Both the position numbers and the translations under genes were made by a program. A model generated the notes under the pieces. That model was not told the origin of the DNA. It worked only from the letters and a program-made list of their open reading frames with translations, and did not search any database. 64,000 bases of DNA from Fuscovulum ytuae (GTDB lineage Bacteria > Pseudomonadota > Alphaproteobacteria > Rhodobacterales > Rhodobacteraceae), in assembly GCF_029953595.1 (NCBI RefSeq), contig NZ_CP124535.1, positions 2,078,001 to 2,142,000 on the forward strand, read 5' to 3'. Below are positions 6,106 through 44,612 of the stretch, piece by piece (position 1 is the first letter of the stretch; each line of letters begins with the position of its first letter).

Positions 6106-6462
6106 ATGACCACCATTCTGCACGTCTGCACCACCTGCCGCGCGGGCCAGCCCGTGCCCGAAGGGCAGGATTGCCCCGGCCAGCGCCTGCATCAGGCGCT
6201 CACCGCCGCCAATGAAGATGCCATGATCACCATCCGCGCCGTCGAATGCCTGTCGGCCTGCGACAACGGCTGTTCCGTCGCGCTGACAAAGCCCGGCGCT
6301 TGGTCTTATATCTATGGCCGCATGACCACGGATGACGTGGCCGAGATTCTGCGCGGTGCCGCGCTCTATGCCGCCTCATCGAACGGCGTTGTGCCGTGGC
6401 GCGAACGCCCGACCATTTTCCGCAAGCAAAGCCTTGCCCGTCTTCCCCCGCTGGAGTCCTGA
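6106..6462 (+). CDS. DUF1636 Cys-rich metal-binding protein of the cob operon
   Basis: A 118-residue cytoplasmic protein of the DUF1636 family. Six cysteines are visible: C8 and C11 (HVCTTCR), C23, and C48, C52, C56 (VECLSACDNGC). The spacing recalls small 2Fe-2S or thioredoxin-like ferredoxins and suggests Fe-S or cobalt/zinc binding; that is inference. The family is repeatedly found beside cobW and cobN in Rhodobacterales, so a role in cobalt delivery or in supplying electrons for cobalt reduction is plausible. The start at 6106 is chosen because a G-rich ribosome site (6095-6105) precedes it; 6088 is possible. It is the first gene after the riboswitch and ends one base before cobW. Confidence 0.8.
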   Translation: MTTILHVCTTCRAGQPVPEGQDCPGQRLHQALTAANEDAMITIRAVECLSACDNGCSVALTKPGAWSYIYGRMTTDDVAEILRGAALYAASSNGVVPWRERPTIFRKQSLARLPPLES

Positions 6463-37394: not shown

Positions 37395-37435
37395 CAAAAG
37401 TATTCGAAAACTTTTGCACATTCCTTCGAAGGAAT
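37395..37435 (+). repeat. Two TTCGAA-centred palindromes between ATPase and permease genes
   Basis: CAAAAGT/ACTTTTG (37395-37416, almost a 22-base palindrome) and the perfect 16-base palindrome ATTCCTTCGAAGGAAT (37420-37435) sit in the gap between two genes of one operon. Local AT content is much higher than in the flanks. They could stabilise or attenuate the mRNA; the permease ribosome site follows at about 37454. Confidence 0.65.
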
Positions 37436-37465
37436 TTGTCCCTGCCCCGCATCGGAGTGCCCCGC

Positions 37466-39536: not shown

Positions 39537-40634
39537 ATGAAGAGAAGAACGATCCTGAAGGGCGGCGCTGCGTTTGGCCTCGCCTCGATGATGGGGGGCA
39601 AGATGGCCCTTGCACAGGGTCTCGAAAAGGCGAAGATCGGCTTCGTCTATGTCGGCCCGATCGGCGACGGCGGCTGGACTTTCCAGCACCATCAAGGTGC
39701 GCTGGCCGTGCAAGAAGCCTATGGCGACAAGGTCGAAATCGTCTGGCAGGAAAACGTGCCAGAAGGCGCGGATGCCGAACGTGTGCTGACCCAGATGGCG
39801 CTGTCGGGCTGCAACATGATCTTCACCACCTCCTTTGGCTATATGGACCCGACCAATGCCGTCGCGGCCAAGTTCCCGGACATCAAGTTCGAACATGCCA
39901 CGGGATACAAGCGCGACCATGCGAACGTGTCCACCTATAACGCGCGCTTCTACGAGGGCCGCGCTGTGCAGGGCCATATCGCGGGCAAGATGACCAAGTC
40001 GAACAAGATCGGCTACATCGCGTCCTTCCCGATCCCCGAAGTGATCATGGGGATCAATAGCTACTACCTGCACGCCAAGAAGGCGAACCCGGCTGTGGAA
40101 CTCTCCATCGTCTGGGCTTTCACCTGGTTCGATCCGGCGAAAGAGGCCGATGCCGCAAAGGCCCTTATCGATCAGGGCGTGGACGTGATCGCATCCCACA
40201 CCGACTCGACCGCCCCCTTGGCCGAAGCGGCCAAGACCAACGGCGCGGTCATCGGCTTTGGTCAGGCGTCCGACATGTCGGAATACAAGCCGACGCCGCG
40301 CGTTTCGTCGATCATCGACAACTGGGCGCCCTATTACGTGAAGCGGGTGGGTGAACTGCTCGACGGCACCTATGCCCAGATCGACGCATGGGAAGGCATC
40401 GCCGGCGGTGAAGTGGAAATCGGTGAAATCACCGATGCCGTCCCCGCCGATGTAAAGGCCGAGGCCGAAGCAATGCGCGACGCCATCGCGGCGGGCACCT
40501 ACCACCCCTTCACCGGCCCGATCAACAAGCAGGACGGCAGCGCATGGCTGGCCGAAGGCGCGACCGCGCCGGATGGCGACCTGCTCGGCATGATGTTCTA
40601 TGTCGAAGGTATCACGGGCGAAATTCCGTCCTGA
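39537..40634 (+). CDS. BMP-family periplasmic binding protein
   Basis: The 365-residue substrate-binding protein belongs to the BMP/PnrA family, whose members bind nucleosides and related compounds. The N terminus MKRRTILKGGAAFG resembles a Tat motif, with cleavage likely after MALAQG (about residue 27); there is no lipobox, unlike many BMP lipoproteins. YVGPIGDGGWTFQHHQG is the family start and GYIASFPIPEVIMGIN the hinge region. Close relatives next to xdh genes are presumed to bind purine bases or nucleosides. A strong terminator follows, closing the xdhABC-importer operon. Confidence 0.88.
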   Translation: MKRRTILKGGAAFGLASMMGGKMALAQGLEKAKIGFVYVGPIGDGGWTFQHHQGALAVQEAYGDKVEIVWQENVPEGADAERVLTQMALSGCNMIFTTSFGYMDPTNAVAAKFPDIKFEHATGYKRDHANVSTYNARFYEGRAVQGHIAGKMTKSNKIGYIASFPIPEVIMGINSYYLHAKKANPAVELSIVWAFTWFDPAKEADAAKALIDQGVDVIASHTDSTAPLAEAAKTNGAVIGFGQASDMSEYKPTPRVSSIIDNWAPYYVKRVGELLDGTYAQIDAWEGIAGGEVEIGEITDAVPADVKAEAEAMRDAIAAGTYHPFTGPINKQDGSAWLAEGATAPDGDLLGMMFYVEGITGEIPS

Positions 40635-40655
40635 TCAGAGTGCCAAATGGCAGCT

Positions 40656-40682
40656 AAAGGCCCGCTTCGGCGGGCCTTTTTC
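40656..40682 (+). terminator. Rho-independent terminator after the BMP-family gene
   Basis: AAAGGCCCGC, loop TTCG, GCGGGCCTTT and a run of T (40677-40682): a perfect 10-base stem with tetraloop, 22 bases after the stop. Confidence 0.95.
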
Positions 40683-40720
40683 TTGCACCCCGTGTGCAAA
40701 GGTCGCAGGGGCCAAGTTCT

Positions 40721-40750
40721 TTAACACATTCATGCATGCGAATGTATACT
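40721..40750 (+). promoter_or_regulatory. sqr promoter with embedded operator ACATTC-N8-GAATGT
   Basis: A -35-like TTAACA (40721-40726) and -10-like TATACT (40745-40750) are 18 bases apart. The spacer contains a perfect inverted repeat, ACATTC at 40726-40731 and GAATGT at 40740-40745. The ATTC-N8-GAAT form is the kind of site bound by ArsR-family persulfide repressors (SqrR/BigR), so repression of sqr until sulfide is present is expected. No such regulator gene is in the window. Confidence 0.7.
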
Positions 40751-40782
40751 GATGTCTGCGACTCATCATGGGAGGATGTCAG

Positions 40783-42069
40783 ATGGCGCATGTCGTCGTG
40801 CTGGGGGCCGGGCTTGGCGGGGCCATCATGGCCTATGAACTGAAAGAACAATTGCGGAAGGAAGACACGGTCACCGTGGTCACCAAAGACCCGACCTATC
40901 ACTTTGTTCCGTCAAACCCTTGGATCGCCGTCGGCTGGCGTGACCGCGAAGAGATCACCGTCGATCTCGCGCCGACCATGGCCAAGAAGAAGATCAACTT
41001 CATCCCCGTTGCCGCCGAAAAGCTGCACCCACAGGAAAACCGCATCGCGCTGGTGAATGGCGAGTCGGTTTCCTACGATTACCTCGTCATTGCCACCGGC
41101 CCCGAACTCGCCTTCGACGAAATCGAAGGCTTTGGCCCGCATGGCGGCTTTACCCAATCGGTCTGCCATATCGACCACGCCGAACAGGCCAAGCTCGTGT
41201 TCGAAGAACTGGTCAAGAACCCCGGACCCGTCATCATCGGTGCCGCGCAGGGGGCATCCTGCTTTGGTCCGGCTTATGAATTCCTCTTCATCCTCGAAAC
41301 CGCGCTGCGCCGGGCCAAAGTGCGCGACCGCGTGCCGATGACCTTTGTCACGTCGGAACCCTATATCGGCCATCTCGGCCTTGATGGGGTGGGCGACACC
41401 AAGGGCCTTCTGGAATCCGAGATGCGCGCCAAGCACATCAAATGGATGACCTCGACCAAGGTGAAAAAGGTCGAGCAGGGCAAGATGACGGTGGAAGAGA
41501 TCGCCGATGATGGCACCTCAAAGGGCGAAAAGGAACTTCCCTTCGCCTTCTCCATGATGCTGCCCGCCTTCCGGGGGATCAAACCAGTCTCGGGCATCGA
41601 AGGCCTGTCGAACCCGCGCGGCTTCACCATCGTGGACCGCCACCAGCAGAACCCCACTTATCCCAACATTTTTGCCGTGGGCGTCTGCGTCGCCATCCCC
41701 CCGATGGGGCCAACGCCTGTCCCCGTGGGCGTCCCCAAAACCGGCTTCATGATCGAATCCATGGTCACGGCCACCGCGCATAACATCGGCAACCTTGTGC
41801 GTGGCAAGGCACCCGATCAGGTCGGGACATGGAACGCCGTCTGCCTTGCCGATTTCGGCGATGGGGGCGTGGCTTTCGTCGCCCAACCCCAGATCCCACC
41901 GCGCAACGTGAACTGGTCATCATCCGGCAAATGGGTCCATATGGCGAAGATCGGGTTCGAGAAATACTTCATCCGCAAACTGCGCAAAGGCGTGTCGGAA
42001 CCCTTCTACGAAACCCTCGCGCTCAAGACGCTGGGGATCGACAAGCTGAAGGAAACCAAGCAAGGCTGA
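40783..42069 (+). CDS. sqr: Sulfide:quinone oxidoreductase, type I
   Basis: SQR is a membrane-peripheral FAD enzyme that oxidises sulfide to sulfane sulfur and reduces the quinone pool. The 428-residue protein begins MAHVVVLGAGLGGAIMAYEL (FAD-binding). The three redox cysteines are present at C128 (SVCHID), C160 (GASCFGPAYEF) and C354 (WNAVCLADFG), matching Cys128/160/356 of the Acidithiobacillus type I enzyme. The C-terminal Lys/aromatic-rich helices that anchor it to the membrane are visible (KIGFEKYFIRKLRKG). GGAGG precedes ATG 40783. It has its own operator and terminator, so it is a single-gene unit. Confidence 0.93.
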   Translation: MAHVVVLGAGLGGAIMAYELKEQLRKEDTVTVVTKDPTYHFVPSNPWIAVGWRDREEITVDLAPTMAKKKINFIPVAAEKLHPQENRIALVNGESVSYDYLVIATGPELAFDEIEGFGPHGGFTQSVCHIDHAEQAKLVFEELVKNPGPVIIGAAQGASCFGPAYEFLFILETALRRAKVRDRVPMTFVTSEPYIGHLGLDGVGDTKGLLESEMRAKHIKWMTSTKVKKVEQGKMTVEEIADDGTSKGEKELPFAFSMMLPAFRGIKPVSGIEGLSNPRGFTIVDRHQQNPTYPNIFAVGVCVAIPPMGPTPVPVGVPKTGFMIESMVTATAHNIGNLVRGKAPDQVGTWNAVCLADFGDGGVAFVAQPQIPPRNVNWSSSGKWVHMAKIGFEKYFIRKLRKGVSEPFYETLALKTLGIDKLKETKQG

Positions 42070-42114
42070 CCGGGTCGGGGATCGCCGCAAAAGCGGCGGC
42101 CCCCGGCTTTTCTT
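42070..42114 (+). terminator. Rho-independent terminator after sqr
   Basis: CCGGG...CCCGG encloses GCCGC-AAAA-GCGGC, followed by TTTTCTT, immediately after the sqr stop. Confidence 0.88.
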
Positions 42115-42143
42115 CCGTTCCGCGTCGTGGCAGTTTCGCCACC

Positions 42144-43049
42144 ATGACGACACCCTCCCCCCTTGCCTTCGGCTGTATGCAATTCGGCGGCCGCGCGGAC
42201 CCCGCCGCCTCGCGCGCGCTCTTTGACGCCTGCCGCGCGGCAGGCATCACCCATTTCGACACGGCCCATGTCTACACCGACGGGCAATCCGAGCGCCTGC
42301 TTGGCAGCTTTGCTCAGGGCGACGATATCTCCATCGCCACAAAGGTGGGCTATGATGGCGGCGCAGGCCGCACCAATCTGACCCGGCAATTCGACGAAAG
42401 CCGCCGCCGCCTTGGCGTCGAGGGCGTCGATCTCCTTTACCTCCACCGCTTTGATCCCGGCACCTCGCTAGAGGAAACCCTGTCGCTCTTCGTCGAATGG
42501 CAGCAGGCCGGACGCATCGCCCGCATCGGCCTTTCGAACTTCGCCGCATGGCAGGTGATGAAAGCCCAAGCCATCCTTGCCCGTTTCGGCAGCCGGGTGG
42601 ATGTGATCCAGCCCATGTTCAACCTTGTGAAACGGCAGGCCGAGGTAGAGCTTCTGCCCATGTGCGCCGATCAGCAGATCGCGGTTCACGCCTATTCCCC
42701 CTTGGGCGGGGGCCTTCTGACCGGGAAATACGCCACGGGCGGCGCGGGCCGTCTGGCCGAAGATCACCGTTACGCTGCCCGCTACGCGCCCGAGGCGATG
42801 CACAAGGCCGCCAAGGGCCTTGCCGACATCGCCACGGAAGGCGGAACTCATCCGGCCACACTTGCCGTGGCTTGGGTCATGTCCTGCCCGATCACCCCAG
42901 TGATCCCGCTGATATCGGCCCGAAGCCCCGAACAGCTTGCCCCCTCTCTCGCTGCGCTGACCTTCCCGATGACCCCACACCTGCGCGCGGAGCTTTCGGC
43001 CCTTTATCCCGCGCCGCCGCCGGCCACCGACCGTTTGGAAGAAGCATGA
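42144..43049 (+). CDS. Aldo/keto reductase family oxidoreductase
   Basis: A 301-residue TIM-barrel protein of the aldo/keto reductase superfamily. FDTAHVYTDGQSERLLG contains the catalytic Asp/Tyr pair, LLYLHRFDP the conserved His and IGLSNFAAWQ the NADPH-binding strand. AYSPLGGGLLTGKY is typical of the YghZ/Tas-like branch. The substrate cannot be told. Its stop overlaps the FAD oxidoreductase gene by ATGA, so the two may act on the same compound. No promoter motif is evident in the short gap after the sqr terminator. Confidence 0.85.
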   Translation: MTTPSPLAFGCMQFGGRADPAASRALFDACRAAGITHFDTAHVYTDGQSERLLGSFAQGDDISIATKVGYDGGAGRTNLTRQFDESRRRLGVEGVDLLYLHRFDPGTSLEETLSLFVEWQQAGRIARIGLSNFAAWQVMKAQAILARFGSRVDVIQPMFNLVKRQAEVELLPMCADQQIAVHAYSPLGGGLLTGKYATGGAGRLAEDHRYAARYAPEAMHKAAKGLADIATEGGTHPATLAVAWVMSCPITPVIPLISARSPEQLAPSLAALTFPMTPHLRAELSALYPAPPPATDRLEEA

Positions 43050-44119
43050 CCGATTTCCTCATCATTGGCGGCGGCATCGCAGGCATCTCTGCCGCTGCCC
43101 GCCTGTCCGAACTTGGCTCCGTCACGGTGCTCGAGGCCGAATCCGCACTTGCCCACCACGCCTCTGGCCGTTCTGCCGCGCTTTATGAACCCCGCTACGG
43201 CGCACCTGCGGTGGTGGAGCTCTCGCTTGCCTCTGAAGATCACTTTCGTGCGGCCGAAAACATCCTCTCCCCCCGCGGCCTGATGATCGTGGCCAAGCCC
43301 GACCAGAAGGATGACTTCGACAGCGACGTGCGCGACATGCAGATGACACGCTGCAGCTTTGACGAGGCGCGCGCAATCGTCCCGATCCTGAACCGCGATA
43401 CGGTCGCCATGGCCGCCTTCGCCGATCACGCATGGGACATCGACACCGATCTTCTCTTGCAGGGCTTCGCGCGCGAGGCGAAATCGCGCGGCGCGCAGAT
43501 CGTCACGGGCGCGCGCGTCACCGCCATTGCCAAAGGCACCGATGGCTGGATCGTCTCAACTGGCGCGGGCGAGTTTACTGGAACACTCCTGATCAACGCC
43601 GCCGGCGCTTGGGTGGATCAGGTCGCCACCATGGCGGGCATCCGCCCCTTGGGCTTTATCCCCAACCGCCGCTCCATGGCCCGTATTCCCGCGCCGGGAG
43701 GGCATGACATCTCCCGCTGGCCCATGCTCTTTGGGGCGGGAGAGGCGTGGTATGCAAAACCCGATGCAGGTGCCCTGATCGTCTCCCCCGCTGAAGAAGA
43801 CCCGCAGGTCCCGCATGACGCATGGGCCGACGACATGGTGCTGGCCGAAGGGCTGGCGCGGTATGAGGAAATGGTCACCGAACCCGTCACCCGGCTGATC
43901 TCCAACTGGGCGGGCCTGCGCACCTTTTCCCCCGACCGGGTGCTTGTCATCGGACGCGATGCGCGAGACCCAAGCTTCTTCTGGCTGGCAGGCCAAGGCG
44001 GCTATGGTTTCCAGACCTGTCCTGCTGCAAGCCGCCTTGCCGCCGATCTGATCGGGGGCGCCCCCACTGCCCTTTCCCTTGGCTTGGTGGCCGCGCTCAA
44101 TCCAGCCCGCTTCGGATAA
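43046..44119 (+). CDS. FAD-dependent amine/hydroxy-acid oxidoreductase (DAO family)
   Basis: A 357-residue protein of the D-amino-acid oxidase family. MTDFLIIGGGIAGISAAARL binds FAD, and a second conserved stretch, FFWLAGQGGYGFQTCPAASRLAADLI, closes the FAD site at the C terminus. Size and sequence fit a single-domain glycine oxidase/D-amino acid dehydrogenase-like enzyme; the substrate is unknown. It is coupled to the upstream aldo/keto reductase. The stop at 44119 directly abuts the operator of the next gene. Confidence 0.82.
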   Translation: MTDFLIIGGGIAGISAAARLSELGSVTVLEAESALAHHASGRSAALYEPRYGAPAVVELSLASEDHFRAAENILSPRGLMIVAKPDQKDDFDSDVRDMQMTRCSFDEARAIVPILNRDTVAMAAFADHAWDIDTDLLLQGFAREAKSRGAQIVTGARVTAIAKGTDGWIVSTGAGEFTGTLLINAAGAWVDQVATMAGIRPLGFIPNRRSMARIPAPGGHDISRWPMLFGAGEAWYAKPDAGALIVSPAEEDPQVPHDAWADDMVLAEGLARYEEMVTEPVTRLISNWAGLRTFSPDRVLVIGRDARDPSFFWLAGQGGYGFQTCPAASRLAADLIGGAPTALSLGLVAALNPARFG

Positions 44120-44139
44120 ACATTCCACTTTGTGAATGT
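44120..44139 (+). promoter_or_regulatory. Second ACATTC-N8-GAATGT operator, before the AhpD-like gene
   Basis: ACATTC (44120-44125) and GAATGT (44134-44139) are identical in arms and spacing to the sqr site at 40726-40745. A weak -10 (TAAATT, 44139-44144) follows in the same relative place. It suggests that the gene at 44211 belongs to the same sulfide-responsive regulon. Confidence 0.65.
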
Positions 44140-44210
44140 AAATTGACCTGAATCAAGGCGCACCGCCACGGGCGGCCTTACCCTTGCTGGCGCAAACAAG
44201 GGACCGGACC

Positions 44211-44564
44211 ATGAGTTACAAGTCAAAAATCGTTGAAATGCGCGGCGAGATTCGCGCGATGAACAAGCTTATCCCCGACGCTGCCGCAGGGTTCGGCACC
44301 TTGTCCAAGGCAGTCAAGGAAAACGGCCCCCTATCCTTCAAGGAAAAGGAATACATCGCCCTTGCCATCGCGATCAGCCAACGCTGCGAGCCATGCATCA
44401 ACTTCCATGTCGAGGCGCTGATGAAATCCGGTGCCACGCGCGAAGAATTGGGCGATGTGCTGGCCATGTCCATCCAGATGGGCGGCGGCCCCGCGCTGAT
44501 GTACGCGGCCCATGCCTTGGCCTGCTGGGATGAACTTGCCGCACCTGCCATCGCCGCCGAATAG
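44211..44564 (+). CDS. AhpD-like/carboxymuconolactone decarboxylase family protein
   Basis: A 117-residue protein of the CMD/AhpD fold. The redox motif C59-E-P-C62-x3-H66 (QRCEPCINFHVEAL) is that of AhpD-like thiol peroxidase-reductases, not of the true decarboxylase. Such proteins cycle a disulfide using CxxC. Because its operator equals that of sqr, a role in handling persulfides or reactive sulfur is the most attractive inference; a peroxidase role is the alternative. AAGGGA precedes ATG 44211. The leader of 71 bases holds the operator. Confidence 0.8.
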   Translation: MSYKSKIVEMRGEIRAMNKLIPDAAAGFGTLSKAVKENGPLSFKEKEYIALAIAISQRCEPCINFHVEALMKSGATREELGDVLAMSIQMGGGPALMYAAHALACWDELAAPAIAAE

Positions 44565-44612
44565 GCGGTGCGCTGCAGGGTGCTTGCAAAGACAGGTGAC
44601 AGGCGCGACGCG

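Follow-up and report, generated by a model that had tools for sequence, protein, structure and literature searches.

Two inverted repeats of the form ACATTC-N8-GAATGT lie 3.4 kb apart in a 64,000-nucleotide stretch of the Fuscovulum ytuae chromosome (contig NZ_CP124535.1, positions 2,078,001 to 2,142,000; hereafter the window). One is in the promoter of sqr, the gene of sulfide:quinone oxidoreductase (SQR), and the other stands before a gene for an AhpD-like protein of the carboxymuconolactone decarboxylase (CMD) family. We consider it likely that both are operators of the organism's own SqrR, that the AhpD-like gene is activated by FnrL and repressed by SqrR, and that its product is an AhpD-type thiol oxidoreductase, most likely a persulfide, polysulfide or peroxide reductase. 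The main features are as follows.

40721..40750, + strand: sqr core promoter, TTAACA-18-TATACT, with 10/12 consensus matches
40726..40745, + strand: SqrR-type operator ACATTCATGCATGCGAATGT, between the -35 and -10 of sqr, with exact arms and conservation in sqr promoters
40783..42069, + strand: sqr, sulfide:quinone oxidoreductase (match to the sulfide-quinone reductase PDB 3sz0, 506 bits)
44120..44139, + strand: SqrR-type operator ACATTCCACTTTGTGAATGT before the AhpD-like gene, conserved in relatives
44143..44156, + strand: FNR/FnrL-type box TTGACCTGAATCAA, the sole TTGAY-N4-RTCAA in the window
44179..44184, + strand: probable -10 (TACCCT) of an FnrL class II promoter, at the place of a conserved A at +37
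44211..44564, + strand: AhpD-like (CMD family) protein, 117 aa (PF02627, TIGR00778; E47-C59-x2-C62-x3-H66)

Two probable operators and a proposed composite promoter

The two repeats have identical 6-base arms and unlike spacers, and both lie exactly where the initial annotation had put them. At sqr, the operator was said to fall between the -35 and -10 boxes, and so it does: it is placed between TTAACA (40721-40726) and TATACT (40745-40750) and has one base in common with each. This promoter is the only sigma-70-like one found in 40600-44600, where 0.8 are expected by chance. When 36 sqr promoters were compared, our own included, 12 contained an exact ATTC-N8-GAAT site against 0.17 expected. 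The sqr product matches 3sz0 (presumably the A. ferrooxidans enzyme) over nearly its full length with the cysteines kept, and it is 78% identical to the copy in a Rhodobacter capsulatus-like genome (G202). Its sole match among the curated NCBIfam SQR models, to the type III selenoprotein, is below the cut-off (101.7 vs 525 bits), a model that, in our view, covers a different type of SQR.

For the AhpD-like gene, we used the best 80 of 154 loci in a collection of genome contigs, none of them identical to our own genome at 100%. The site ATTC-N8-GAAT was found within 150 bp upstream in 27 of the 80 loci, while shuffled sequences gave a mean of 0.20 and a maximum of 3. The footprint is specific to the 8-base spacer, as spacers N4-N7 and N9-N11 gave no site at all and N12 gave 3, which equals the shuffled maximum. 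The 27 sites carry 26 different spacers. A variant, ATTC-N8-GCAT, is present in 8 further loci (shuffled mean 0.27). Two kinds of match were dropped from the count. In 7 loci, an apparent variant, ATTC-N7-GATAT, is ambiguous because it shares bases with the FnrL-type box. The GCAT-type match in L029 likewise falls on that box, though this locus also holds a site at -88 with one mismatch. The suggestion that the repeat is a conserved protein site and no duplicated segment is thus borne out by the differing spacers and by this N8-specific footprint in relatives. Two side observations concern these loci. In L034 (~6380-6399) and L044 (~6391-6410) a second strict site, AYATTC-N8-GAATRT, lies immediately past the AhpD-like gene, in front of one that encodes an EF-hand protein (Pfam assignment for L034 only). 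Also, L083, from a record titled Exiguobacterium profundum, has clearly Rhodobacteraceae-like sqr and AhpD-like genes and is likely a mislabelled metagenome-assembled genome.

A second element at the AhpD-like promoter had been missed by the initial annotation. A perfect FNR-type box starts 3 bp past GAATGT. An exact TTGA-N6-TCAA occurs in 63 of the 80 AhpD-like promoters (shuffled mean 0.12), at positions -64 to -78 relative to the start codon. Counted from the first base of the box, an A stands at +37 in 52 of these 63 promoters (background 15%), and TG stands at +33/34 in 40 (background 7%). Class II FNR promoters with an extended -10 have this spacing. By conservation in the 63 loci, the distance from the box to the probable -10, 22 bases on, fits a class II FnrL promoter; in the window, TA is present at the +37 place and TG is absent. 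The genome also encodes its own FnrL, which scores above the NF045989 cut-off (471.3 vs 300 bits).

Box and operator are coupled at a nearly fixed distance. There are 33 loci that bear both, and in 26 of them 3-5 bp separate the end of the 16-base operator core from the box, a centre-to-centre distance of 18-20 bp. Of these 26, 25 carry an exact or GCAT site and one, L029, a site with one mismatch; the 7 loci outside this group have the ambiguous overlapping N7 form. In the window, the core occupies 44122-44137 and the box begins at 44143, which leaves a gap of 5 bp and places the centres 20 bp apart. The rest of the 80 loci divide into 30 with the box only, 10 with a site and no exact box (in L039 and L059 the box is one mismatch off), and 7 with neither. 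We did not adopt an arrangement like that at sqr, with the AhpD-like operator lying over a sigma-70 -10 (GAATGTAAATT), since inspection by eye showed no -10 conserved in the interval from operator to box. The sqr and AhpD-like promoters are probably not controlled alike, because of the FnrL-type box at the AhpD-like gene. No FNR-like box was found at the window's sqr promoter. In the near relatives L026, L027 and L106, such a box is located at -75, directly before the SqrR-type site of sqr (with one mismatch in L106), and four more of the 36 sqr promoters hold one elsewhere.

We propose the following model. Reduced SqrR would bind ATTC-N8-GAAT and repress, and persulfide would link its two cysteines and release it. 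At sqr, where the operator is within the core promoter, bound SqrR would block RNA polymerase. For the AhpD-like gene, the box would be centred at -41.5 and the operator near -61.5 from the predicted start site; FnrL would activate at low oxygen, and bound SqrR may mask upstream DNA needed for contact with FnrL or with the C-terminal domain of the polymerase alpha subunit. The gene would thus be expressed at low oxygen in the presence of persulfide. Sequence comparison gives good support to the proposed SqrR repression of both genes; the AhpD-like gene is a probable member of the SqrR regulon, and it probably also answers to oxygen via FnrL.

The AhpD-like protein and its possible roles

The 117-residue protein is above both curated cut-offs, with 45.7 vs 27.8 bits for TIGR00778 and 73.2 vs 23 bits for PF02627. 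In an alignment of 23 sequences (the window's protein, its R. capsulatus-like counterpart and those of 21 of the 80 loci), five residues are invariant in all 23: E47, C59, C62, H66 and a third cysteine, C105. The spacing E-x11-C-x2-C-x3-H is that of Mycobacterium tuberculosis AhpD, and the window's protein fits it. The AlphaFold2 model is all-helical, with a mean predicted local distance difference test score (pLDDT) of 87 and a predicted template modelling score (pTM) of 0.62. Its best PDB matches are CMD/AhpD proteins, with modest TM-scores (about 0.45-0.61) and large root-mean-square deviations. The protein has family, helical fold and CxxC core in common with lpg0406 (5dik) and RclX (7y4r), but C105 lies near its C-terminus, where these two have no cysteine in the alignment. 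From these features, it is most likely an AhpD-type thiol oxidoreductase which acts in the sulfide response on a persulfide, polysulfide or peroxide.

The best competing explanation, to which we give somewhat less than an even chance, is that the protein is an ordinary peroxide-defence or low-oxygen protein with no persulfide substrate, its expression governed mainly by FnrL and only fine-tuned through the SqrR site. The FnrL-type box is kept more than the SqrR-type site (63 vs 27 of the 80 loci), 30 loci hold the box without the site, and the AhpD catalytic residues fit peroxide reduction. However, 8 box-less loci, with L039 and L059 excluded since their box is one mismatch off, keep an exact or GCAT site at -43 to -76. 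YgaP has been linked to sulfide, and three other members of the own regulon, namely sqr, a metallo-beta-lactamase (MBL) protein and a YgaP-like protein, are sulfide genes by family, which also speaks against a role outside the sulfide response.

A more specific proposal is that the protein is a dedicated persulfide or polysulfide reductase, in which the CxxC pair and C105 would drain the persulfides made by SQR when the oxygen-dependent persulfide dioxygenase cannot work. In this proposal, the gene would be wired to FnrL and SqrR together because the dioxygenase cannot work without oxygen. We regard it as tentative and, on balance, rather doubtful. The earlier idea that the protein works with SQR or on persulfides is likewise not established. 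In a congener (G104; locus L344, G104:C1:826000-837000) the genes for sqr, aldo/keto reductase, FAD oxidoreductase and GH25 follow in order without an AhpD-like gene between them, and sqr was found within the examined stretch (up to 6 kb upstream, shorter at some loci) in only 15 of the 80 AhpD-like loci, which speaks against a fixed partnership. A SqrR-type site is present at 8 of the 15 loci with sqr and at 27 of the 65 without it, so there is no clear dependence.

Two genes lie between sqr and the AhpD-like gene in the window.

42144..43049, + strand: aldo/keto reductase (PF00248), no operator of its own
43046..44119, + strand: FAD-dependent oxidoreductase (DAO family, PF01266), the near upstream neighbour of the AhpD-like gene

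The search for ATTC-N8-GAAT found none for this pair, in agreement with the absence of a site that had been noted there. The FAD oxidoreductase is the more constant companion, being found within 2.3 kb upstream of the AhpD-like gene in 60 of the 80 loci.

The probable regulator and its other sites

An SqrR homologue, which the initial annotation had proposed to look for, was found. Six PF01022 proteins are encoded in the genome and two of them resemble SqrR. The first, L018 (131 aa, G000:C1 at about 417 kb), has its best matches in 6o8k/6o8l (134.6 bits), which are named as ArsR family and which we take to be R. capsulatus SqrR (RcSqrR); aligned to 6o8k, it keeps both sensing cysteines and also a third, N-terminal one. 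The second, L019, has the same structures as best match at 109.5 bits, but its last, C-terminal cysteine is out of register. A tree was built from 114 of 131 homologues, the two own proteins and RcSqrR, with 17 weak matches left out (117 rows, only 109 columns). L018 and RcSqrR are in one weakly supported 61-row group, which has a Shimodaira-Hasegawa-like approximate likelihood ratio test (SH-aLRT) support of 80 and is open inside, while L019 belongs to an SoxR-like group (97). L019 adjoins YeeE/YedE-like and CcdA-like genes, named by eye, and we call it SoxR-like by this context. By sequence, the genome encodes an SqrR orthologue, L018.

It is improbable that L019, alone or with SqrR, represses at one or both sites. 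RcSqrR structures are also its best match and it falls in a separate supported group; moreover, two related regulators from Hyphomicrobium, SoxR and sHdrR, are reported to share DNA fragments as binding targets (PMC12423496). On the other hand, L018 is nearer to RcSqrR and has its C-terminal cysteine in register, which L019 does not. ATTC-N8-GAAT was not found in the 3 kb around either gene, a result that does not discriminate between the two.

The genome-wide scan proposed for ACATTC-N8-GAATGT was run over 4,185,011 bp in 3 contigs. It returned 2 exact copies, not the many random copies that were held to speak against an operator, and the window contains no third exact copy. Allowing up to 2 mismatches gave 70 matches genome-wide against 10 for the reversed control pattern, and 3 within the window against 1.48 expected; since the latter count is near chance, only the exact form stands out there. 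The strict form occurs 5 times against 0 for the control, and ATTC-N8-GAAT 35 times against 2. A one-mismatch match at 37418-37437, between genes for ATP-binding cassette (ABC) transporters, is a copy of a dispersed palindrome with the core ATTCCTTCGAAGGAAT. The exact 16 bases of this core account for 3 of the 35 own ATTC-N8-GAAT sites (one at window 37420-37435) and for 8 of 32 in G122. That the two sites are due to chance or to duplicated DNA has a negligible probability, for although the dispersed palindrome inflates the ATTC-N8-GAAT counts, the spacers differ, the 12-base form is exact only twice and the N8-specific footprint is strong.

All five strict sites precede genes: sqr, the AhpD-like gene, a persulfide-dioxygenase-like MBL gene, a gene for a YgaP-like membrane protein, and a gene for an adaptor of the resistance-nodulation-division (RND) type with a divergent LacI-type gene opposite. 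Hence one operator type is indeed common to sqr and the AhpD-like gene, as was claimed, but it is shared by five genes and not two. The MBL protein is single-domain; it matches the dioxygenase half of Blh (380.7 bits, against 625 for the cut-off of the two-domain model) and also ETHE1-type structures. In ten genomes we counted 28 strict sites, against 1 for the control. By our own reading, 8 precede AhpD-like genes, 5 belong to the RND adaptor/LacI pair (only the LacI side was seen in L207), 4 precede YgaP-like genes, 3 sqr and 2 EF-hand genes, with one each for MBL, TrxC-like and TsoY-like genes and 3 other or unclear. The figure for AhpD-like genes is biased upward, as 8 of the ten genomes were chosen via their AhpD-like locus and 7 of these have a strict site there. 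One example of each family was tested, LacI-type excepted, and the others were assigned by likeness. The strict sites before the genes of the TsoY-family protein (L212 1501) and the TrxC-like thioredoxin (L215 2507) are from a Pseudotabrizicola genome. The site between the RND efflux adaptor and the divergent LacI-type regulator (L023 3674) recurs in four relatives with a near-identical spacer (AAGACT and similar), so the spacer may matter there.

The R. capsulatus-like genome offers a link to published targets. It encodes RcSqrR at 100% over the fragment, as do two other genomes, and was picked for its SqrR, not its sites; by all signs, it is R. capsulatus SB1003. There are 17 ATTC-N8-GAAT sites in it against 2 for the control, and 5 of them precede the AhpD-like gene, trxC, a Pyr_redox_2 gene, and two genes assigned through similarity to our own proteins, one YgaP-like and one for an RND adaptor. 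A published trxC primer (PMC10044876) contains the very site that we found before trxC in this genome, and in the same source, as excerpted, trxC is up about 22-fold with sulfide and in an sqrR mutant.

Several observations weigh against SqrR as the regulator of both genes, or against a general role for the AhpD-like gene in its regulon. Both ATTC-N8-GAAT and the GCAT variant are absent from 45 of the 80 AhpD-like loci. Of the 17 sites in the R. capsulatus-like genome, 12 fall within frames, precede other genes or have no clear gene nearby, and the sqr promoter of that genome has ATATTC-N8-GCATAT and no exact site. The congener lacks an AhpD-like gene at the sqr-GH25 locus, the one locus that the search covered. 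Our regulator is under the cut-off of the NCBIfam BigR equivalog NF040642 (93.6 vs 155 bits), so we do not file it as BigR, and L019 could use the same site. Persulfide dioxygenases of R. capsulatus are not SqrR-controlled according to excerpts of PMC9995734, unlike what our own MBL site suggests. Finally, among genomes with an SqrR-like protein, taken as the 61-row tree group plus the loose rows beside it, 26 of 68 hold no site of any sort, and for the exact site the association is weak (26 of 68 genomes with the protein vs 1 of 12 without; Fisher p 0.051). When all site variants are counted, the ambiguous ones included, the figures are 42 of 68 vs 1 of 12 (p 0.0009), with relatedness not removed, and an independent-pairs test gave 2 pairs on supported branches. 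Co-occurrence across these 80 genomes was set aside as proof, there being too few independent changes.

Comparison with known systems

Our literature search, which had supplementary tables outside its scope, found no link of a CMD/AhpD-family gene to SqrR or FnrL; a listing in the 2017 RNA-seq data is likely. One paper that names both persulfide and carboxymuconolactone decarboxylase has the latter in a table row for P. aeruginosa PA0269, and in another the matches concern AhpCF. The present analysis connects an uncharacterised AhpD-like family with the sulfide response of Rhodobacteraceae. It also indicates that sensors of oxygen and of persulfide may act at one composite promoter, from sites slightly less than two turns of DNA apart. 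Both anaerobic persulfide removal and the function of the AhpD-like protein thereby become testable in a laboratory strain.

The analysis also suggests an identity for rcc00528, a "candidate peroxiredoxin" of R. capsulatus whose expression is reported to rise more than 10-fold both with sulfide and upon loss of SqrR, and whose deletion left sqr induction like wild type (PMC9995734, PMC10044876). AhpC/TSA matches in the R. capsulatus-like genome number 10 in total, with none between 42 and 770 kb, and the AhpD-like gene lies at 566 kb, near the expected place of rcc00528. Interpolation from sqr (rcc00785, 863.6 kb) to each of two GGDEF-EAL genes assumed to represent rcc00645 gave about rcc00515-525; this is approximate, as our gene finder called one gene per 1.38 kb, which we take as too few. 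Since no AhpC/TSA match falls in the 42-770 kb interval and the AhpD-like gene stands at 566 kb, rcc00528 is probably this gene.

The SqrR regulon of R. capsulatus resembles the system described here in its operator and its orthologous regulator. The SqrR-type recognition first proposed for ATTC-N8-GAAT agrees with the site deduced for RcSqrR (PMC9774250, in part), and sqr, trxC and rcc00528 are sulfide- and sqrR-dependent in the excerpted accounts (PMC9995734, PMC10044876). Two differences are apparent. The operator of the R. capsulatus-like AhpD-like gene is 30 bp before the gene, overlaps the likely core promoter and by eye has no FnrL box, whereas that of the window is upstream of an FnrL-type class II promoter; and our genome, unlike R. 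capsulatus, has a site at a persulfide-dioxygenase-like gene. When compared with the Rhodobacter FnrL regulon, the box in the window fits the R. capsulatus consensus (T/C/A)TGA-N6-TCAA (PMC4634722, in part), but here it is coupled to an SqrR-type operator at a nearly fixed distance.

The BigR system is a further relative. The BigR box is ATATTC-N8-GAATAT, and we know of no AhpD-like gene in the BigR operon. In Xylella and Agrobacterium, as here, an ArsR-type sulfide sensor and a Blh-like dioxygenase are under one control (PMC5823870, in part). However, BigR governs one operon, while the targets here are dispersed single genes and the own regulator misses the cut-off of the BigR model.

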